From NCBI GenBank assembly GCA_030052355.1, contig JASIGS010000342.1:1-7733 (forward strand): 7,733 nt of DNA. Direction: 5' to 3'. The notes under the pieces were generated by a model. It was not told where the DNA came from and did not search any database. It was given only the letters and a program-made list of their open reading frames with translations. This document shows, piece by piece, positions 1-7,733 of the stretch. Each line of letters begins with the position of its first letter. Positions within the stretch are counted from its first letter, which is position 1. Source of the DNA: Streptosporangiaceae bacterium. Lineage in GTDB: Bacteria > Actinomycetota > Actinomycetes > Streptosporangiales > Streptosporangiaceae. A program made the translations under genes and the position numbers.

Positions 1-720
1 CTGCTGGCCTGGGCGAAGGCGGCAGCCGCGCGGCTGTCCGAGCTCGACAGCGACGAGGACAGGATCGGCGAGCTCGGCCGGCAGGAGGCCGAGCTGGCCG
101 CGACGGTCGCCGACCTGGCCGGCCAGCTGACGGCCGCCAGGACGCAGGCAGCCAAGCGGTTCGCCGACGAGGTCACGGACGAGCTGACCGCGCTGGCCAT
201 GCCGCACGCGCGGGTCAGCGTGGCCGTCACGCCGGCCCCGTCCTTCGGGCCGCACGGCGCCGACGAGGTCGAGATACGGCTAGCCGCGCACCCGGGAGCG
301 CCCGCGCTGCCATTGCACAAGGGCGCGTCCGGCGGTGAGCTGTCCCGCGTCATGCTGGCCATCGAGGTCGTGTTCGCCGGCGCGGACCCGGTGCCCACGT
401 TCGTGTTCGACGAGGTGGACGCCGGCGTGGGCGGCAAGGCGGCGGTCGAGGTCGGCCGCAGGCTCGCCAGGCTCGCGCGGCTCGCCCAGGTCATCGTGGT
501 AACCCACCTGCCGCAGGTCGCGGCCTTCGCGGACACGCACCTGGTCGTAGAGAAGGCGAGCGACGGGACCGTCGTCCGGAGCGGGATCACCCGGCTCGAC
601 GACGCGGGCCGGGTGCGCGAGCTGTCCCGGATGCTGGCGGGCCTGGAAGACTCGGAGTTCGGCCAGGCACACGCCAGCGAGCTGCTGACCGCGGCCTCGG
701 CAGAGCGCGCCGGCCGGTAG
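1..720 (+). CDS. recN: DNA repair protein RecN, C-terminal part (5' end outside window)
   Basis: RecN is a cytoplasmic SMC-like ATPase that acts early in recombinational repair of double-strand breaks. The frame is open from base 1, so this is the last 239 residues of a protein usually about 560-590 long. Visible residues 1 to about 60 are Ala/Glu/Leu/Arg-rich and helical, fitting the returning arm of the coiled coil. The C-terminal ATPase lobe follows: the ABC signature SGGELSR at visible residues 110-116, the Walker B/D-loop FDEVDAGVGG at 136-145, and the H-loop segment VTHLPQVAA at 167-175. This order and wording are diagnostic of RecN. The Walker A half is upstream of the window. No defect is visible. 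The TAG stop lies inside the left arm of a hairpin. steA follows after 88 bp, the order also seen in Mycobacterium. Confidence 0.96.
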   Translation: MLAWAKAAAARLSELDSDEDRIGELGRQEAELAATVADLAGQLTAARTQAAKRFADEVTDELTALAMPHARVSVAVTPAPSFGPHGADEVEIRLAAHPGAPALPLHKGASGGELSRVMLAIEVVFAGADPVPTFVFDEVDAGVGGKAAVEVGRRLARLARLAQVIVVTHLPQVAAFADTHLVVEKASDGTVVRSGITRLDDAGRVRELSRMLAGLEDSEFGQAHASELLTAASAERAGR

Positions 721-808: not shown

Positions 809-2014
809 ATGGCAAGGCACATGAAGGCGCCAAACCGGAATTTCATCGCTGCGCGCCGAGCCAGGTCAAGGGAACCGGCCGGTGTGACGGGCACGGCACG
901 GCTCGACCGCCGGACCAAGGACCTGGTCAAGCGGCTGAAACCCGGCGACGTCGCGATCATCGACCACGCCGACCTGGACCGGGTGGCTGCGGATTCGCTG
1001 ATCAGGTGCCAGGTCTGCGCCGTGGTGAACGCGGCGCAGAGCATCAGCGGCAGGTATCCGAACCCGGGCCCCCAGCTGCTCGTCGAGGCGGGCGTGCCGC
1101 TGGTCGACGACGTCGGTCAGGACGTATTCGAGCAGGTACGCGAGGGTCAGCAGGTCAGGGTCGACGGCGACACGCTGTACCTGGCGGACACCGTGGTCGC
1201 CAAGGGAACCAAGCAGGGTGCCGATACGGTCGCGCGCGACATGGCCGCCGCCAAGGAGGGCATCGCAGACGAGCTCAGGGCGTTCGTCGTCAACACGTTC
1301 GAGCACATCAACCGCGACTCGGACCTGCTGGTCGAGGGCATCAAGATCCCTGAACTCCGCACGAAGCTGGCGGGCAGGCACGCGCTCGTAGTCGCCAGGG
1401 GCGTTCACTATCACGAGGACCTGCAGACGCTGCGGGCCTACATCCGGGAGTTCAAGCCCGTCAAGATCGGCGTGGACGGCGGCGCGGACGCGCTGATCGA
1501 GGCGGGGTACTGGCCGGACATGATCGTCGGGGACATGGACTCGGTGTCCGACCAGGCGCTGCTGCATAGCGGCGCCGAGGTCGTCGTGCACGCCTACCGG
1601 GACGGGCAGGCGCCCGGCCTGACCCGGGTGCAGGAGCTGGGCATCGAGCCCGCCGTCTGTCCCGCCGCCGGCACCAGCGAAGACGTCGCCGTGCTGCTGG
1701 CGGACGAGGCCGGAGCCGGCCTGATCGTCACCGTGGGCATGCGATTCGGGCTGGTAGAGTTCCTGGACAAGGGCCGTTCCGGCATGGCCAGCGCCGTGCT
1801 CACCCGGATCAGGGTGGGCGACAAGATCGTCGACGCCAAGGGCGTGAGCCGGCTGTACCAGAGCCGGATTTCCGGCCGGGCGCTGCTGCTGCTGGCGGCC
1901 GCCGCGCTGCTGCCGGTGATCGCGCTGGCGCTGACGCCGGCCGGCAAGCTCTATCTCGGATACCTGGGCCTGGCTTTGCGCCAGGTGTGGGACTGGCTAA
2001 CTGGACTGACTTAG
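809..2014 (+). CDS. steA: SteA, thiamin-pyrophosphokinase-like cell-separation protein with C-terminal membrane anchor
   Basis: The 401-residue product matches the Rv1697/SteA family, which in Corynebacterium works with SteB in septal cell separation. A basic N-terminus leads into the family motif TARLDRRTKDLVKRLKPGD (residues 29-47) and AAQSISGRYPNPGP (75-88). A TPK-like catalytic fold follows, with GVDGGAD (221-227), PDMIVGDMDSVSD (236-248) and SEDVAVLLA (290-298). One hydrophobic helix at about 356-376 puts the bulk in the cytoplasm if the family topology holds. The usual thiamin-binding half of TPK is replaced by the anchor, so thiamin pyrophosphorylation is not predicted. The start is uncertain. 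ATG 809 and ATG 821 both keep the basic stretch seen in relatives but have weak ribosome sites. GTG 884 has AAGGGA upstream at a long spacing but would remove that stretch. The stop shares one base with the steB start. Confidence 0.93.
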   Translation: MARHMKAPNRNFIAARRARSREPAGVTGTARLDRRTKDLVKRLKPGDVAIIDHADLDRVAADSLIRCQVCAVVNAAQSISGRYPNPGPQLLVEAGVPLVDDVGQDVFEQVREGQQVRVDGDTLYLADTVVAKGTKQGADTVARDMAAAKEGIADELRAFVVNTFEHINRDSDLLVEGIKIPELRTKLAGRHALVVARGVHYHEDLQTLRAYIREFKPVKIGVDGGADALIEAGYWPDMIVGDMDSVSDQALLHSGAEVVVHAYRDGQAPGLTRVQELGIEPAVCPAAGTSEDVAVLLADEAGAGLIVTVGMRFGLVEFLDKGRSGMASAVLTRIRVGDKIVDAKGVSRLYQSRISGRALLLLAAAALLPVIALALTPAGKLYLGYLGLALRQVWDWLTGLT

Positions 2015-3048
2015 TGATCGATTTCAGGTATCACCTGGTCTCCATGATCGCGGTGTTCCTGGCCCTGGCCGTGGGCCTGATCGTGGGCGTCACGGCGCTC
2101 AGCGGCCCGGCGCAGAACATCCTGAACGGCGAGCTGAACAGGGTGCGGGGGACCAACAACACGCTCGTCAAGGACAAGCAGGATCTCAACAACGAGCAGA
2201 ACGCGAACCAGTCGTTTGCGCAGGCCAGCGCCCCGCTCCTGCTCGACCACCTGCTTACCGGGCAGAACGTGGTTCTGGTCCAGGCTCCTAACCCCGACCC
2301 CGCGGTGACCAACGGGGTCATGGCCGCGCTCAAGCTGGCCGGCGCCAATATAACCGGCGAGGTCAACCTCAGCACGAAGTTCATGGACACCAACGTGGCG
2401 ACGGAAGACTCCCTGACCTCTCTCGCGACACCGGTGGCCTCGACGGCCGGGGTGAGCCTGCCCAGCCAGTCGTCGGACCCGGCCGTGTCGGGACAACAGG
2501 ATGCCGCGGCTGTCATCGCCGCTGCCATCCTGGACACGGACGGGACCGGTCTTAAGACCAGTGTCAGCGAGACCGTACTGTCGCCGTTCCTCAGCGGGAA
2601 CTATCTCTTGTTCTCCAACCTGCCGGGCAGTGCGCAGGTTCCGCCGCCCGCCACCATGGCCGTGCTGGTGATCCCGGGTGGTACGGCGCCCACGAGCAGT
2701 GACGGAGCCGACCAGGTGCTGACGGCCGTCGCGCAGGAGCTCAAGGCTTACGGCGAGGCCACCGTCATGGTCGGCCCGGCGATCGGCATCGGGTCTGGCA
2801 GCGCGATCAGCGCTGAGAACAGCGCCCCTACCGCCGGGCAGGTCTCCACGGTCGACTTCGCGGACACCGAGGCCGGTCAGATCCAGGCCGTGCAGGCGCT
2901 TGCGCTGGCGCGCGACGGACAGCCGGCGAAGGCCTACGGCGTGGAGTCGGGCGTGGCGCCGAGCCCTGCTCCCACCCCGTCCTCGTCCACGACCACCACC
3001 ACGCCGCCCGCCACCACCACCAAGAAGGGTGGGGCGAAGAAGAAGTGA
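2014..3048 (+). CDS. steB: SteB / MctB-family protein (annotated copper transporter), bitopic membrane protein
   Basis: The 344-residue product begins with IDFRYHLVS, the canonical N-terminus of the Rv1698 (MctB)/SteB family (PF11382). That fixes the start at GTG 2014, overlapping the steA TAG by one base. An upstream in-frame GTG at 1987 would add nine residues before this motif and is not favoured. One membrane helix spans about residues 8-30. A polar Asn/Gln/Lys-rich predicted coiled coil follows at about 34-72, then an exported alpha/beta domain containing NVVLVQAPNPDP and LAGANITGEVNLS. Known family roles conflict: Rv1698 was described as an outer-membrane copper efflux protein, while SteB acts with SteA in cell separation. 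The adjacent steA favours the latter. The C-terminus (about 318-344) is a Pro/Ser/Thr-rich tail with two Thr runs, ending in a lysine-rich tip. I see no metal-binding Cys or His cluster. Confidence 0.92.
   Translation: MIDFRYHLVSMIAVFLALAVGLIVGVTALSGPAQNILNGELNRVRGTNNTLVKDKQDLNNEQNANQSFAQASAPLLLDHLLTGQNVVLVQAPNPDPAVTNGVMAALKLAGANITGEVNLSTKFMDTNVATEDSLTSLATPVASTAGVSLPSQSSDPAVSGQQDAAAVIAAAILDTDGTGLKTSVSETVLSPFLSGNYLLFSNLPGSAQVPPPATMAVLVIPGGTAPTSSDGADQVLTAVAQELKAYGEATVMVGPAIGIGSGSAISAENSAPTAGQVSTVDFADTEAGQIQAVQALALARDGQPAKAYGVESGVAPSPAPTPSSSTTTTTPPATTTKKGGAKKK
2986..3045 (+). repeat. ACC-triplet-rich low-complexity tract encoding the SteB Thr/Lys tail
   Basis: Near-repeated ACC/ACG codons give two Thr runs (T326-T330 and T334-T336) split by Pro-Pro-Ala, followed by AAG-rich codons for the lysine tip. 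The tract is in frame and could vary in length between strains by slippage. The AAGGGTGGGG within it (3025-3034) is also the best candidate ribosome site for the next gene, whose GTG starts at 3045. Confidence 0.6.
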
Positions 3049-4016
3049 GCCGACGTGCCGGGAACCGGAGAGCGGGCCCTTCGGGCGCGCTGTGTTCTGC
3101 CGTGCTGGCCGCCGGAGCGGCCAGGGTCTCCTATGCCGTGCTGACCAAATGCCCGCCGGGTGGAGACAAGACCTGGACGCGGACCAACCACCGGGGCGAG
3201 ACCGTCACGCTGCTGGCCGGGCCCGCGGTGACGATCGGCGCGGTCGCCGGTGCGGCGGCGACCGGCCTGAGCCCGCGCTGGCGTGCCGCGATGATGGTGG
3301 CCGGGACCGGGGCTGCAGCATTCGGCGGGTACGACGACCTAGCGGGTGACGGCTCGAGCCGCGGGTTCCGCGGCCACATCGGAGCGCTGCGCCAGGGCCA
3401 GGTGACCACCGGCGCGGTCAAGCTGGCCGGCATCGGCACTACGGGGCTGGCCGCCGCCGTCCTGGCGGGGGGTGAGCGGCCCGCCGACGTGATCATCGAT
3501 GCCGGGCTGATCGCGGGCGCGGCGAACCTCATCAACTTGTTTGACCTGCGGCCCGGCCGGGCGATCAAGGCGGCTTTGGCCGCTGGACTGATGCTCTCTG
3601 CACCGCCCGGCTGCGCCGCGCCGCTGGCCGCCGCCGCGGCGCTGCTGCCCGAAGACCTCGGCGAGCGCGCGATGCTCGGCGACGCCGGGGCCAACGCGGT
3701 AGGAGCGATGCTCGGGGTGGCGGCCACCGCACTGCCGAGGCGTGCCCGGATGGCCGCGCTCGCCGGAGTCGTCGGCCTGACGGCGGCGAGTGAGCTGGTG
3801 AGCTTCACCAAGGTCATCGAGCGGACTCCGGCGCTGCACTGGCTGGACATGCTGGGCCGCAGGCCCGCCGGGGACGCCGCGAGGAGCGGGGTCTCCGAGC
3901 CAGCCGTGGCGGCGCCGTCCAGCCGGGGGACGGCGCCCCCAGCCCCGATGGCCGGAACCGCTGGAGCCGCCGGTCTGCCGCCGCAGCCGCCGGCCGCGAC
4001 CACCGGGCGGCGGTGA
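3045..4016 (+). CDS. Divergent MraY/WecA-family polyprenyl-phosphate sugar-1-phosphate transferase
   Basis: Family members (PF00953) move a sugar-1-phosphate from a UDP-sugar onto polyprenyl phosphate at the inner face of the membrane. Of 323 residues, about 272 form a multi-spanning core. The markers appear in the expected order: TNHRGETV (47-54), the catalytic Asp pair in GGYDDLAGD (94-102), RGFRGHIGALRQG (106-118) with TTGAVK (121-126), NLINLFDLRPGR (161-172), LGDAGANAVG (211-220), and TPALHWLDMLGR (261-272), which occupies the place of the MraY HHH or WecA His loop. The usual NxxNxxDGxDG motif is altered to end in DLRPGR, and only one His remains, so substrate cannot be assigned and it is not the housekeeping MraY. 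GTG 3045 overlaps the steB stop as GTGA. Residues about 273-323 are a Pro/Ala/Gly-rich, apparently disordered tail. The following flippase and glycosyltransferase support a lipid-linked glycan role. Confidence 0.82.
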   Translation: MSRRAGNRRAGPSGALCSAVLAAGAARVSYAVLTKCPPGGDKTWTRTNHRGETVTLLAGPAVTIGAVAGAAATGLSPRWRAAMMVAGTGAAAFGGYDDLAGDGSSRGFRGHIGALRQGQVTTGAVKLAGIGTTGLAAAVLAGGERPADVIIDAGLIAGAANLINLFDLRPGRAIKAALAAGLMLSAPPGCAAPLAAAAALLPEDLGERAMLGDAGANAVGAMLGVAATALPRRARMAALAGVVGLTAASELVSFTKVIERTPALHWLDMLGRRPAGDAARSGVSEPAVAAPSSRGTAPPAPMAGTAGAAGLPPQPPAATTGRR

Positions 4017-5662
4017 CCGGCCCCGCTGTCCAGGTCGCGCGGGACGACCAGGACCCATCGACACAGCAGCCGGCCGGCACCGGCATCGGCAGGGCCGCCG
4101 CGCTGATCGCGGCGCTGACCGTGGTCGCGAGGCTGCTCGGGCTGGTGCGGACCCTGGCGTTCGCGCACACCGTGCAGGCGAGCTGCCTGGGCACCGCCTA
4201 CGTCACCGCGAACGAGCTGCCCAACATCGTCTACGACATCGTCCTCGGTGGCGCGCTGACCAGCATCATGGTGCCGGTGCTCGCCAGGCCGGCGCAGCGG
4301 TCGGGCACCGACCCGGTGGCCGCCAGCGAGGTCAGCCAGACCTCGTCCGCCCTGCTGACCTGGACGATCCTGATCCTGGTGCCGGTCAGCGCCGTCATCG
4401 CGGTCGCGGCCGGCCCGCTCGCCGGGCTGCTCAACCCGCGCAACAGCGCGGTTGTCTGCCCGCATGACGCGCTGGTCGGCACCACGGCGCAGATGATCAC
4501 GGTATTCGCGCCGCAGGTCGTGCTGTACGGGCTGGCCGTGGTGCTGTACGGAATCCTGCAGGCGCACCGCCGGTTCACCGCTCCCGCGGTCGCGCCGGTG
4601 GTCTCGAGCCTTGTCGTGGTTGCCGCCTACGTGGCGTTCACCCCGCTCGGCGGCTCGTACCGTAACCACCTCGGCGGGCTGCCGCTGTCGGCGGAGCTGG
4701 TGCTGTCGGTGGGCACCACGGCCGGGGTCGCCGCACTCGTGCTGACGGCGCTGGTGCCGGCCTGGCGGCTCCGGTTGCGGCTGCGCCCGACGCTGCGGTT
4801 CCCGCCGGGCGTGGGCCGGCGGGCTGTCGGGCTCGCCGGCTACGGCGTCACCGCGCTGGTCGCGCAGGACGCCGCGCTGCTGGTGGTGATCCTGCTGGCC
4901 AACGGGCACGGGACGCAGGCCGCCGTCGTTCTCTACAACTACGGCTGGCAGGTGTTCGAGGCGGCCTACGCGGTGCTGGCGATCTCGATCGCGGTCAGCG
5001 CGTTCCCCGTGCTGTCTGCCCGCGAAGGCGATGAGTTCGACCAGACAGCGTCAGAGTCGGTGCGCGCGGTGCAGCTTATGTCGTTCCTCGGCACCGCGGC
5101 GATGCTGGCGATCGCCGCGCCCGCCTCGCACCTGTTCGGTGCCGGCTCGCAGCTCGCGATCGGGCTGGCGTTCTTCGCTCCCGGCCTGGCCGGATACGGC
5201 ATGGTCGCCTGCCTTTCCCGGGTGCTGCTGGCCACCGGGCGGAGCCGGGTGGCGGCGGCGGCCGTCGCGGGCGGCTGGCTGCTGGTGATCGCCGTCGATG
5301 TCGCTGCGGTGCTGATCGTTCCGCCGCGATGGGTGGTGGGCGCGCTCGGCCTCGGCAACACCGTCGGGCTGACGGCCGCGGGGATCGCGCTCCTGGTGGC
5401 CGTGCACCGCGAGCGCGGCGCCGGCGCGCTGCGCGGCATCCGCGGCACCGCGATCATGGGCGTCGTGGCCGGCGTCGTCGGTGCAGGCGTCGGCGCTGCC
5501 GTGGCGTTCGTGCTGCCCTCGGGCGGGACGATCGAGGAGGGCGGCATCGCGGTGCTGGCAGGCTGCTGTGCGGTGGCCGCGTTCAGTGCCGTCGCCTACG
5601 CGCTGGACCGCGGGGAACTACGGGCGGCGGTCGCGCGGGCCCGCCGGGCGGTCCTGCGGTGA
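4013..5662 (+). CDS. murJ: MurJ/MviN-family lipid-linked oligosaccharide flippase, paralog-like
   Basis: This 549-residue, very hydrophobic protein fits the MurJ branch of the MOP flippase superfamily, which moves lipid-linked saccharides across the inner membrane. After about 25 polar residues, the N-terminal signature runs ARLLGLVRTLAFA (39-51), ELPNIVYDIVLGGAL (68-82) and VPVLA (87-91). A second marker is LYNYGWQVFEAAYAVLAISI (307-326) ending in AFPVLSA (330-336). About 13-14 membrane segments can be drawn, the family norm, and the length is close to the usual 510-550. Compared with E. coli MurJ as I recall it, R18 and R24 are kept (R40, R46), but D39, R52 and R270 align with T61, Y74 and Q313. 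Those cavity residues matter for lipid II transport, so the cargo may differ. The GTG start overlaps the previous stop as GTGA, with only a weak GGGCGG upstream, so coupled translation is likely. Confidence 0.87.
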   Translation: MTGPAVQVARDDQDPSTQQPAGTGIGRAAALIAALTVVARLLGLVRTLAFAHTVQASCLGTAYVTANELPNIVYDIVLGGALTSIMVPVLARPAQRSGTDPVAASEVSQTSSALLTWTILILVPVSAVIAVAAGPLAGLLNPRNSAVVCPHDALVGTTAQMITVFAPQVVLYGLAVVLYGILQAHRRFTAPAVAPVVSSLVVVAAYVAFTPLGGSYRNHLGGLPLSAELVLSVGTTAGVAALVLTALVPAWRLRLRLRPTLRFPPGVGRRAVGLAGYGVTALVAQDAALLVVILLANGHGTQAAVVLYNYGWQVFEAAYAVLAISIAVSAFPVLSAREGDEFDQTASESVRAVQLMSFLGTAAMLAIAAPASHLFGAGSQLAIGLAFFAPGLAGYGMVACLSRVLLATGRSRVAAAAVAGGWLLVIAVDVAAVLIVPPRWVVGALGLGNTVGLTAAGIALLVAVHRERGAGALRGIRGTAIMGVVAGVVGAGVGAAVAFVLPSGGTIEEGGIAVLAGCCAVAAFSAVAYALDRGELRAAVARARRAVLR

Positions 5663-6885
5663 GGACGGCGTCTGCGTCCGGCCCGCAGCCGCGGGCCCAG
5701 CCGGCCCGGGCGAGTAAGGCACGGGCGATTGAGGCACGGGCCGGGCGCGCGCAAGACCGGCCGACACGAGTCGCATTCGTGGTCGGCACGGCGTCCGGCG
5801 GCACCGCCCGGCACGTGGCCACGCTCGCGGCAGGCTGCCGGGACGCGGGGCTTCAGGTGATCGCGCTCGGCCCGTCACGTGATCAGTTCGGCGCCGGCGT
5901 CGAGTTCGAGGCGGTGGCGGTCGGGCATCGTCCGCGTGTCGGCGATGCGGCGGCCATCGTGCGGCTGCACCGCACGCTGCGCGCCTGGCAGCCCGACATC
6001 GTGCACGCGCACGGCGTGCGAGCTGGCGCGTTCGCCACTCTGGCCCTGCTCGGCTGGCCAGTGCGCTCCCGCCGGCCGACGCGCAGGCCCAGTTGCCTGG
6101 TGGTCACCGTCCACAACGCGCCGCCGCCCGGACACCTCGCCAGGCTGGCCCACCTGGTGCTGGAGCGGGTGTGTGCCCGGGGCGCGGACGAGGTGCTCTG
6201 CGCGTCGCAGGATCTGGCGGGGCGGATGCGCAAGCTGGGCGCCGCCCGGGTTGCCCAGGTCGACGTGGCCGCCGCCGCTGGAGCGCCGCCGTCGGCGGAA
6301 GCGATCGCCAGGGCCAGGGCAGACATCGGCGCGGGAAGCCGGCCGGTCGTGCTGAGCGTCGGCAGGCTGACCGCGCAGAAAGGCTTCGACGTCCTGGTGG
6401 CCGCGGCGGCGCGATGGCGCGACCGCGACCCGGCACCGCTGGCCGTGATCGCGGGGGACGGCCCGCTGGCAGCCGGGCTGCGCGTCCAGGCCAGGCACGC
6501 GGGTGCGGACCTGCTGCTGCTGGGCCACCGCGACGACGTTCCCGCTCTCATGGCCGTGGCGGACGTGGTCGCGGTGCCGAGCCGGTGGGAGGCGCGCGCG
6601 CTGGTCGTCCAGGAAGCAATGCGGGCGGGCAGGCCGGTCATCGCGACGCGTGTCGGCGGCACTGCCGACCTGGCCGACGACGGCACGGCCTTGCTGATAC
6701 CACCGGACGACCCGGCTGCCCTTGCCGCCGCGGTCACGGAGGTGCTCGACGACCCGCCCCTCGCGGCCGGGCTCGGCCGGGCGGCAGCGGCCCGGAGCGG
6801 CACGTTCCCTACCGAGGCGGACACGGTGAGGACAGCGCTGGAGTTGTACCGGCGGCTGGCGGGAGCACGCGCGGCCGACCACTAG
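5659..6885 (+). CDS. GT4-family (GT-B fold) glycosyltransferase
   Basis: The 408-residue product is a retaining GT-B glycosyltransferase, expected in the cytoplasm or at the membrane surface and using a nucleotide-sugar donor. The N-terminal lobe has TRVAFVVGTASGGTARHVATL (36-56) and PDIVHAHGVRAG (112-123). The C-terminal donor lobe has VLSVGRLTAQKG (231-242, with R236 and K241 in the phosphate-binding positions), VIAGDGPL (263-270), LLGHRDDVPALMAVADVVAVPS (287-308), the EX7E pair E311/E319, and RPVIATRVGG (325-334). The first 36 residues are Arg/Ala/Pro/Gln-rich and probably disordered. The start is GTG 5659, a GTGA overlap with the flippase stop; the open frame extends further upstream but only inside the flippase gene. 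Sugar and acceptor cannot be read from sequence. Context suggests extension of the lipid-linked product of the MraY-like enzyme. The stop overlaps the convergent oxidoreductase stop by 4 nt. Confidence 0.9.
   Translation: MRTASASGPQPRAQPARASKARAIEARAGRAQDRPTRVAFVVGTASGGTARHVATLAAGCRDAGLQVIALGPSRDQFGAGVEFEAVAVGHRPRVGDAAAIVRLHRTLRAWQPDIVHAHGVRAGAFATLALLGWPVRSRRPTRRPSCLVVTVHNAPPPGHLARLAHLVLERVCARGADEVLCASQDLAGRMRKLGAARVAQVDVAAAAGAPPSAEAIARARADIGAGSRPVVLSVGRLTAQKGFDVLVAAAARWRDRDPAPLAVIAGDGPLAAGLRVQARHAGADLLLLGHRDDVPALMAVADVVAVPSRWEARALVVQEAMRAGRPVIATRVGGTADLADDGTALLIPPDDPAALAAAVTEVLDDPPLAAGLGRAAAARSGTFPTEADTVRTALELYRRLAGARAADH
6882..6885. other. CTAG palindrome shared by two convergent stop codons
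   Basis: The four bases CTAG read TAG on both strands, ending the glycosyltransferase (+) at 6885 and the oxidoreductase (-) at 6882. The two genes overlap tail to tail by 4 bp and no hairpin-plus-T-run is visible between them, so transcripts from both sides should overlap. Confidence 0.95.
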
Positions 6886-7733
6886 AAGCGGCTGAGGGCG
6901 AAGCGCTCGGGCGGGGGGCTGTAGCCGCCGGCGGCGAGGCCGGCGAGCCACTCGCCGAGCAGCGGGCCGAACTTGAACCCGTGGCCGGACGTGCCGCAGC
7001 CGACGACGACGTTGCCCACCCGGTCAAGGACGAAGTCCTCGTCAGGCGTGTTGTCGTAGATGCAGCGCTCCGCTATGCCGCGACCCACGGCGTAGCCGGG
7101 CAGGTACCGGCTCGCCGCCGCGACCACGCGGCCGAGCAGCTCGTCGTCTGGCGCCTGGGTCTGAGCGTCCGGATTCACGGCCGGGCCGCTGTGGTGGATG
7201 CCGATCTTGTAGAGGTCCGTCCCCGGCACCGGCAGCCCGTACGGCTCGGGTGCGCCGTGACAGATGAAGATGGGCGCGGCCGGGCCGTCGCCGTCCAGCG
7301 GCCGGACGTACGCCACCTGTTCCAGGGTCGCCCGGGCAGGCAGGTCGATGCCGCACCCGGCCAGCAGGGCGCCGGTCCACGGGCCTGCCGTCAGCACGGC
7401 GACCCGCGCCGTCAACGGATCGCTGCTGGTCCGCAGCGTGACCTGCCTGCCGTCGTCCGCCAGCCCGGTGACCCGCAGGCCGGTGCGGAGGTCCGGCACC
7501 GCCGCCGCCAGCGCGACGAGCGCCTGGCCGGCCGCGATGACGGCGGAGTCCGGCTCGAGCAGCGCCGGGCCGCCGACCGCGATGGCCGGGAACCGGGACG
7601 CTGTCTCGTCGGGGGAGAGCAGTTCGCACGGCGCACCCGCGTGGGTCATGGCCTCCTGCACATCGGCCATCTGCGTGCCGAACGTGAGCTGCGGCGTCGG
7701 CAGCAGCAACGACCGGCCGGACTCCGACTCGAG
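6882..7733 (-). CDS. FAD-dependent amine oxidase, monomeric sarcosine oxidase/SolA type (N-terminus outside window)
   Basis: The last 283 residues are visible. The frame stays open to base 7733, so the start and the N-terminal GxGxxG dinucleotide fold are missing. An internal TTG at 7709 is not a credible start. The family oxidises N-methyl or secondary amines such as sarcosine or N-methyl-tryptophan using O2, releasing H2O2. From the window edge, it begins LESESGRS, typical of the segment after the FAD fold. YKIGIHHSG (codons near 7188-7212) keeps the Lys and the His four residues later that match MSOX K265 and H269. ERCIYDNTPDEDFVLD carries a Cys (codon 7062-7064) at the position of the covalent FAD attachment in MSOX (C315). 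CGTSGHGFKFGPLLGEWLAGL is the C-terminal family signature. The substrate is not assignable. The gene converges on the glycan operon with a 4-nt stop overlap and is probably functionally unrelated to it. Confidence 0.9.
   Translation of the reverse strand, partial: LESESGRSLLLPTPQLTFGTQMADVQEAMTHAGAPCELLSPDETASRFPAIAVGGPALLEPDSAVIAAGQALVALAAAVPDLRTGLRVTGLADDGRQVTLRTSSDPLTARVAVLTAGPWTGALLAGCGIDLPARATLEQVAYVRPLDGDGPAAPIFICHGAPEPYGLPVPGTDLYKIGIHHSGPAVNPDAQTQAPDDELLGRVVAAASRYLPGYAVGRGIAERCIYDNTPDEDFVLDRVGNVVVGCGTSGHGFKFGPLLGEWLAGLAAGGYSPPPERFALSRF

Follow-up and report, generated by a model that had tools for sequence, protein, structure and literature searches.

A stretch of 7733 nucleotides from a Streptosporangiaceae bacterium (contig JASIGS010000342.1; hereafter the window) was analysed for the genes that accompany steA and steB. 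Between positions 809 and 6885 five genes abut without a spacer: steA, steB, a divergent gene of the MraY/WecA type whose product belongs to the PNPT superfamily (hereafter the PNPT), a MurJ-type gene and a glycosyltransferase gene of family GT4. Each junction is an overlap of 1 to 4 nucleotides. The steA/steB junction reads TAGTG, and the PNPT, MurJ-like and GT4 genes each begin within a GTGA overlap. A prior reading made from the letters of the DNA (the sequence-only reading) had proposed this order and packing, and the coordinates and overlapping start and stop codons bear it out. The features of the run are given below (TPK, thiamine pyrophosphokinase).

809..2014, + strand: steA, 401 amino acids, predicted membrane-anchored cytoplasmic protein with a TPK-type pocket (NF040608, 486 bits)
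914..919, + strand: SteA T36-K37, N-terminal residues that disappear along with the pocket
1475..1543, + strand: SteA pocket motif 1, DGGAD (1475-1489) and GDMDS (1529-1543)
1589..1591, + strand: SteA H261
1673..1783, + strand: SteA pocket motif 2, TSED (1673-1684) and DKGRSG (1766-1783)
2014..3048, + strand: steB/MctB-type bitopic protein (PF11382), probable GTG start at 2014, mechanical open reading frame from 1987
3045..4016, + strand: divergent PNPT (mraYL), 323 amino acids
3333..3377, + strand: PNPT D97-D98 and GFRGH (3363-3377)
3525..3569, + strand: PNPT motif NLINLFDLRPGRAIK
3672..3695, + strand: PNPT motif MLGDAGAN
3834..3860, + strand: PNPT C-terminal motif LHWLDMLGR, unconserved in SteA-less copies
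4013..5662, + strand: MurJ-like flippase (PF03023)
5659..6885, + strand: GT4 glycosyltransferase (PF00534, PF13692)

SteA, SteB and the PNPT

SteA scored 486.1 bits against NF040608 (cut-off 150) and 44.8 bits against PF12555 (cut-off 26.4), and matched PF04263 above its cut-off. The score against the Pfam TPK_catalytic model was 33.4 bits, just above the cut-off of 30.7, and that against TIGR01378 (thiamine pyrophosphokinase) was 35.5 bits, below the cut-off of 76.4. The elements of the TPK-type pocket are K37, R197, DGGAD, GDMDS, H261, TSED and K321. A profile of canonical SteAs matched MptE (E 3e-8) and, weakly, TPKs over the pocket motif. SteA shares the DGgA...GDmDs motif with TPKs, MptE and Maf glycosyltransferases, and the following His is common to SteA and MptE. 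Unlike these proteins, SteA has an extra N-terminal part and a C-terminal membrane anchor, and the profile matches were partial only. Its sequence indicates no thiamine role.

SteB scored 195.7 bits against PF11382 (cut-off 25.6). The pair resembles the SteAB of Corynebacteriales (Rv1697/Rv1698, TapA/MctB) in the two protein families, in the steA-steB order and in membrane anchoring, and PNPT-less SteAs retain scaffold residues, P181, G310 and R333 among them. The closest solved chains to the window SteA were 9hmy and 9hmz. In our own alignments the pocket motifs of both solved SteAs, from M. tuberculosis (9HMY) and from C. glutamicum (9HMZ), are degraded (GDPDQ/PADADG and GNPTG), whereas the window pocket is intact; Mycobacterium-like loci are without the PNPT cassette.

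No family of Pfam or NCBIfam was matched by the PNPT, which thus falls outside the family of MraY proper. Used as a profile, an alignment of 40 locus-linked PNPT homologues (A1) matched MraY chains (E 6e-8) and paired GxxDD, NxxNLxD and GDxGxxxLG between the two. PNPT residues 12-297 were modelled with AlphaFold2 (predicted local distance difference test, pLDDT, 93.1; predicted template modelling score, pTM, 0.90). In a Foldseek search with this model, the first 31 of the 50 matches listed were all MraY or human DPAGT1 (probability 0.99-1.00), and the remaining matches among these 50 had a probability of 0.10 or less. The modelled fold is that of the MraY/WecA/TagO/DPAGT1 superfamily. The catalytic-type motifs DD, NxxNxxD and GDxG align to those of MraY and were found in 91-92 of 92 SteA-linked copies, counted in an alignment restricted to copies above 200 bits. 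D97, D98 and H111 were present in 91 of these copies, N164, D167, P170, R172 and K175 in all 92, as were M210, G212, D213 and G215, and the L264/D268/G271 motif near the C-terminus in 90 to 92.

MraY proper carries a C-terminal triple-His (HHH) motif. No conserved C-terminal His triplet of this kind was found in the PNPT family alignment; the window PNPT has its own C-terminal motif, and RPGRxxK in place of the MraY-type DGLDG segment. The label 'MraY/WecA-like' of the sequence-only reading was upheld by fold, profile and motifs but has to be taken more loosely than it was written, no Pfam or NCBIfam family being matched. By its motifs and predicted fold the third gene is a PNPT. A chemically active enzyme is the natural reading of these features, and activity on polyprenyl phosphate is very probable. 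The closest homologue among the 120 listed was 99% identical over 94% of the query, and a scan of viral contigs with the PNPT alignment found no relative.

Retention of the SteA pocket with the PNPT in Actinomycetota

SteA and the PNPT were searched for in 198 Actinomycetota genomes, drawn evenly, many of whose assemblies are fragmentary (phylum sample). SteA was over the cut-off in 90 genomes and a strong PNPT was present in 84; 81 genomes had both, nine SteA only, three the PNPT only and 105 neither (Fisher p 6e-41, which is only descriptive because the genomes are related). The line for a strong PNPT was 130 bits and was chosen after the score gap was visible. Profile A1 was built from SteA-linked copies only, and unlinked relatives score lower with it. 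Linked copies mostly scored above 186 bits (139 and 154 for partial ones), SteA-less copies 98-180 bits (245 for G180, whose contig is cut), and the lowest matches listed, taken for ordinary PNPTs, 41-51 bits.

In 75 of the 81 co-carriers SteA and the PNPT lie on one contig, and in the other six on different contigs. The PNPT was downstream of SteA and on the same strand in 75/75 of the same-contig pairs, at a distance of 923 to 14184 base pairs. In an order sample of 61 genomes the PNPT was found in 28, all 28 of them with SteA, and SteA alone in 30. In a class sample of 296 genomes SteA accompanied the PNPT in 93 of 106 and was alone in 63; up to eight first-look PNPT candidates per genome were scored there, and absence is less sure. 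The expectation that steAB and glycan genes would occur together more often than by chance was strongly confirmed by these samples. The coupling of steAB with the PNPT is real and spread over the phylum, and a functional coupling of SteA with the PNPT is highly probable. Such a link is favoured over mere adjacency because the SteA pocket is conserved almost only together with the PNPT, as follows.

A pocket was considered intact when S245 and at least three of K37, R197, H261 and K321 were present. On the PNPT side, 109 SteAs were scored: 80 of the 81 of the phylum sample (G078 was left out), 28 of the order sample and that of the window; PNPT-bearing genomes that only the class sample added were left out. 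On the PNPT-less side, 62 SteAs were scored, namely a first 30 and 32 from the class sample whose loci were also read as DNA. The pocket was intact in 109/109 SteAs of PNPT-bearing genomes and in 2/62 of PNPT-less ones. D223, D242, D244, S245, R197 and H261 were present in all 109 PNPT-side proteins, K321 in 107 (one R, one gap) and K37 in 107 (two gaps). Without the PNPT, S245 was kept in 4/62, H261 in 13/62, K321 in 3/62 and K37 in 6/62. The first 30 PNPT-less SteAs gave 0/30 for S245, 6/30 for H261, 10/30 for R197, 2/29 for K37 and 1/30 for K321, and all 30 retained the scaffold residues P181, V195, P217, G310 and R333; P181, G310 and R333 were kept in 62/62. The window SteA agrees at each of the 29 pocket letters scored. 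Downstream of steA, 56 of the 62 PNPT-less loci continue to a co-directional pyrG with no profiled cassette gene detected there; an intact pocket occurs in none of the 56.

Seven loci were cut by contig ends. Five SteA-only genomes, all with intact pockets (G129, G140, G159, G175 and G315), were set aside as unclear, their contigs breaking off directly behind steA or within the cassette; two with degraded pockets (G283 and G326) were counted as PNPT-less. If all seven are taken as PNPT-less, 7/67 pockets are intact; if all seven are set aside, 2/60. Of the 63 SteA-only genomes of the class sample, 22 were left out of the locus reading, three of them weak SteA matches (G257, G282 and G297).

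A tree of 146 SteA- or PNPT-bearing genomes was made from RecN, PpnK and PyrG by a quick search with SH-like approximate likelihood ratio (SH-aLRT) support and midpoint rooting. It leaves out the 105 phylum-sample genomes with neither protein, and the long-branch genomes G182, G161, G005 and G113 were dropped. PpnK and PyrG family identity was checked on one copy each. This tree superseded one made from RecN only, which gave three supported contrasts, too few for a sign test. Outside one large clade, every lineage with a known PNPT state has the PNPT. PNPT presence changes at least eight times on the tree, at least six of these changes being forced by supported branches, and the losses are clustered. 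Supported branches gave six independent pairs of genomes that differ in the PNPT. Averaged over random pairings, the pocket went the same way as the PNPT in 5.8 of these contrasts, the opposite way in 0 and showed no difference in 0.2 (median p 0.031, range 0.031-0.0625). When the two PNPT-less genomes that have intact pockets were left out, 6.0 of six contrasts agreed (p 0.031, the minimum for six pairs). The sequence-only reading had left a choice between addition of the cassette here and its loss in M. tuberculosis. On this midpoint-rooted tree of SteA- or PNPT-bearing genomes the choice falls on loss, in the Mycobacterium-like group and in several other lineages. The recN-steA-steB-pyrG loci (4/82 of the first sample), taken for Mycobacterium-like from their architecture, look like losses.

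As a control, positions with at least 97% conservation among PNPT-bearing genomes were scored for retention below 50% in PNPT-less genomes. Such decay affected 13/68 positions in SteA, 0/40 in RecN, 0/20 in PpnK, 0/152 in PyrG and 0/8 in SteB. Because RecN, PpnK, PyrG and SteB show no such decay, the PNPT-less lineages are, judged from these alignments, not simply divergent at the steA locus.

The PNPT may have changed in turn. Nine Streptomyces-like loci of one clade were read (L114, L115 and L265-L271); their order is recN-PNPT-GT4, with pyrG in view in one, and neither steA nor steB was found in any of the nine. SteA-less PNPTs keep D97, D98, D167 and D213; N161, K175 and N217 are replaced and the L264/D268/G271 motif is gone (D268 and G271 in 0/9 SteA-less copies versus 92/92 SteA-linked ones). 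This reciprocal change is suggestive only, because it represents one evolutionary event. Contact with SteA is a candidate role for this C-terminal motif.

MurJ-like protein, GT4 and locus variants

The MurJ-like protein scored 129.1 bits against PF03023 (cut-off 27.4) and 128.3 bits against the MurJ equivalog TIGR01695, under the cut-off of 235.55. A profile of its family matched MurJ 7waw (E 1.6e-60). R18, R24 and R270 are essential cavity arginines of E. coli MurJ according to the available part of one report (PMC9973255). The equivalents of R18 and R24 were kept in 25/27 and 26/27 cases, and, in part on account of this retention, MurJ residues were not accepted as proving another substrate. 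The likeness to the lipid II flippase MurJ is thus one of sequence family and of these two arginines. What separates the window protein from MurJ is its score under the equivalog cut-off and the usual presence, in relatives, of a higher-scoring MurJ next to which it is a second copy. Of 18 genomes that carry a MurJ at the SteA locus or at the equivalent locus L001, 17 have such a MurJ elsewhere; the remaining one is G001, whose assembly also yielded no SteA. The cassette MurJ is an extra copy in relatives. Two relatives in named records came from metagenome-assembled genomes of Streptosporangiales (56%) and Actinomycetota (62%). The GT4 protein scored above cut-off with PF00534 (109.6 bits), PF13692 (107.8), PF13579 (65.7) and PF13439 (54.7), and far short of the thresholds of all 25 NCBIfam families listed.

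Architectures were read by profile in 82 SteA loci (81 relatives and the window), 65 of which are PNPT loci. Counting by domain coordinates undercounts slightly: SteB was counted in 76 loci versus 80 by another count, and GT4 was missed in L079, L081 and L092. The commonest order was recN-steA-steB-GT2-PNPT-pyrG, and recN was present in 66/82 loci. A GT2 or GT4 gene on the same strand was found in at least 52/65 PNPT loci and MurJ in at least 14/65. The order steA-steB-PNPT-murJ-gt4, considering profiled families only, was shared by 17 loci, that is the window and 16 others. Four loci (L099, L104, L107 and L108) have steA(-steB)-PNPT-pyrG with no glycosyltransferase gene between. The 'prime, extend, flip' cassette of the sequence-only reading therefore survives in its first member, the PNPT being a near-constant partner, but MurJ and GT4 are optional and the cassette as drawn is one variant only.

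The window holds two further genes, at its ends:

1..720, + strand: recN 3' end (TIGR00634, 250 bits, fragment residues 2-230), upstream neighbour and conserved anchor of the locus
6882..7733, - strand: 3' part of a DAO-family FAD oxidoreductase gene, convergent with GT4 and overlapping its stop codon

The oxidoreductase resembles SoxA and N-methyltryptophan oxidase, yet scores under the cut-offs of those models. No pyrG, the usual neighbour at this locus, was found within the window.

Three further kinds of gene were seen in related loci. A protein of 745 amino acids (c19; for example L043:4355-6580:-) occurs in at least 19/65 PNPT loci and is absent from the window; it accounts for 34 rows over the loci, two of which are overlapping duplicates. 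The c19 copies tested had no Pfam or NCBIfam match. An AlphaFold2 model (pLDDT 85.5) has an alkaline-phosphatase-superfamily ectodomain atop a multi-helix membrane part, and such a predicted protein would be suited to modifying a glycan after its export. A gene of the M23 type (LytM) occurs in 17/82 loci (for example L046:8530-9309:+), between recN and steA in those loci that were drawn. The three copies tested scored 22.7-24.9 bits, all below the Pfam cut-off of 28.7; this gene is a possible SteAB-controlled hydrolase outside mycolate bacteria. Flippase genes on the opposite strand lie downstream of steAB in L060, L062, L065, L094 and L102, accompanied by GT4 and c19 in L094 and L102, and precede the PNPT in all four of these loci that have it in view. 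From their gene order, these loci may be local inversions or re-assemblies of the cassette.

SteA and a lipid-linked saccharide pathway

In C. glutamicum, SteA and SteB emerged as ethambutol-sensitivity genes with a part in cell separation; SteA is recruited to the septum there and acts with SteB on a hydrolase (PMC6705760). A 2026 study solved SteA of M. tuberculosis and described a conserved phosphonucleotide-type pocket, leaving its ligand unidentified; C. glutamicum SteA was stabilised by GDP and UDP and not by ADP or triphosphates, and nucleotide tests with the M. tuberculosis protein were inconclusive (PMC12977500). These statements follow the accessible portions of the two papers. No published description of a steAB-PNPT cassette or of its link to the pocket was found in the literature searched, most subscription papers being outside its coverage.

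On balance we favour the view that this five-gene run is one version of an old actinobacterial module in which SteAB, the regulator of a septal hydrolase, is joined to a pathway for a lipid-linked saccharide. Underneath it stand the conserved co-localisation of steAB with a dedicated PNPT, the fold and motifs of that PNPT, and the co-retention of SteA pocket and PNPT. In such a module, the PNPT would transfer the sugar-1-phosphate moiety of a nucleotide sugar to polyprenyl phosphate, GT4 (or GT2 at other loci) would extend the lipid-linked saccharide and the MurJ-like protein, where present, would flip it. The SteA pocket would bind, and perhaps process, a nucleotide sugar, a nucleotide product or a lipid-linked intermediate. 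Its state would be relayed through the SteA-SteB membrane bundle to a septal peptidoglycan hydrolase, so that the glycan would license separation. Once the pathway was lost, SteA would keep a scaffold role only and its pocket would decay. That the ligand of the pocket comes from the PNPT pathway is rather probable; that this ligand controls hydrolysis is a question on which we are evenly divided. Making and export of the glycan at the division site, as the sequence-only reading had it, would follow by analogy from the localisation of SteAB in C. glutamicum, its one ground.

Several points weigh against a SteA that depends on the PNPT pathway. C. glutamicum SteA binds UDP and GDP despite its degraded motif (available text of PMC12977500). 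Mycobacterial TapA/SteA was reported, in the part of a preprint that was available, to act via MtrAB, with MctB/SteB not needed for separation (PMC12338722); an MtrAB route would be possible once the original input was lost. Two sister genomes near the Streptomyces-like clade are the exceptions among PNPT-less SteAs. Both keep the key pocket residues. G339 has GT4 and, of the PNPT, no more than a degenerate remnant (22 bits); in G425 GT4 alone is present and no PNPT was found, and G425 SteA is already without D244 and G345. They look like recent PNPT losses. From the other side, 13/106 PNPT genomes of the class sample are SteA-less, and the PNPT can work alone because Streptomyces-like genomes retain PNPT and GT4 without SteA. 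The MurJ and glycosyltransferase genes are inconstant across loci. Finally, the tree test has six events only and lies at the edge of significance. As an observation on its own, L245:3302-4030:- holds what is left of a degenerate PNPT (22 bits), next to a GT4 that looks intact and an intact SteA pocket, apparently a recent loss.

SteA might instead be an enzyme of the pathway itself, a TPK/Maf-type transferase that works with a nucleotide-activated donor and takes the PNPT product, or a precursor, as acceptor, with SteB as septal anchor and mycobacterial SteA as a pseudoenzyme. The full DGGAD/GDMDS/TSED-type motif with invariant Asp, Arg and His and a near-invariant Lys would suit an enzyme, as would the profile matches to MptE and, weakly, TPKs, and the four PNPT loci with no glycosyltransferase gene between steA(-steB) and pyrG leave a place for one. 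In the portion available of one study, a putative Maf flagellin glycosyltransferase has a TPK-type domain and CstII resembles TPK (PMC3426422); a glycan-transfer role of such a site therefore has precedent. Studied SteA homologues, however, serve as scaffold or activator, and a GT2 or GT4 gene usually lies near the PNPT. We consider this enzyme unlikely, while keeping it in view, and lean towards SteA as a sensor-regulator.

The Mycobacterium-like group has a different envelope, and its loss of the PNPT coincides with it. A third factor, such as a wall polymer or hydrolase type replaced in some lineages, could then have driven both changes, SteA using nothing from the PNPT pathway; the clustering of the losses on the tree and the M23-type gene, beside steA in some loci and not in others, would agree with this. 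Yet six separate supported contrasts show the same link, the adjacency is specific to the PNPT and SteB shows no parallel decay (eight positions were scorable), which makes a common cause quite improbable. Hitchhiking of steAB and the glycan genes in a conserved recN-pyrG neighbourhood, with no functional link between them, may be dismissed as very improbable, for although recN and pyrG are themselves conserved neighbours with no obvious functional link, it predicts none of the residue-level decay that was confined to SteA among the proteins scored.

Returning to the SteA that answers to the PNPT pathway, what is new here is that its pocket stands or falls with the presence of the PNPT. The genomes themselves name a candidate source for the ligand, a PNPT being encoded close by in the majority of phylum-sample genomes with SteA (81/90; 75 on the same contig). 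Pocket decay offers a reason why M. tuberculosis SteA might lack clear nucleotide binding, and the cassette-bearing SteA is the one to study. Chances are about equal, in our estimate, that ancestral SteA was a nucleotide-sugar-dependent enzyme or sensor of a PNPT-initiated glycan pathway licensing separation, and that mycobacterial and corynebacterial SteAs, which underlie the published models consulted, are pocket-degraded remnants after loss of this pathway. The results point to a lipid-linked saccharide, so far undescribed, in the vicinity of the division machinery, and suggest that the well-studied mycobacterial SteA is a stripped-down descendant.

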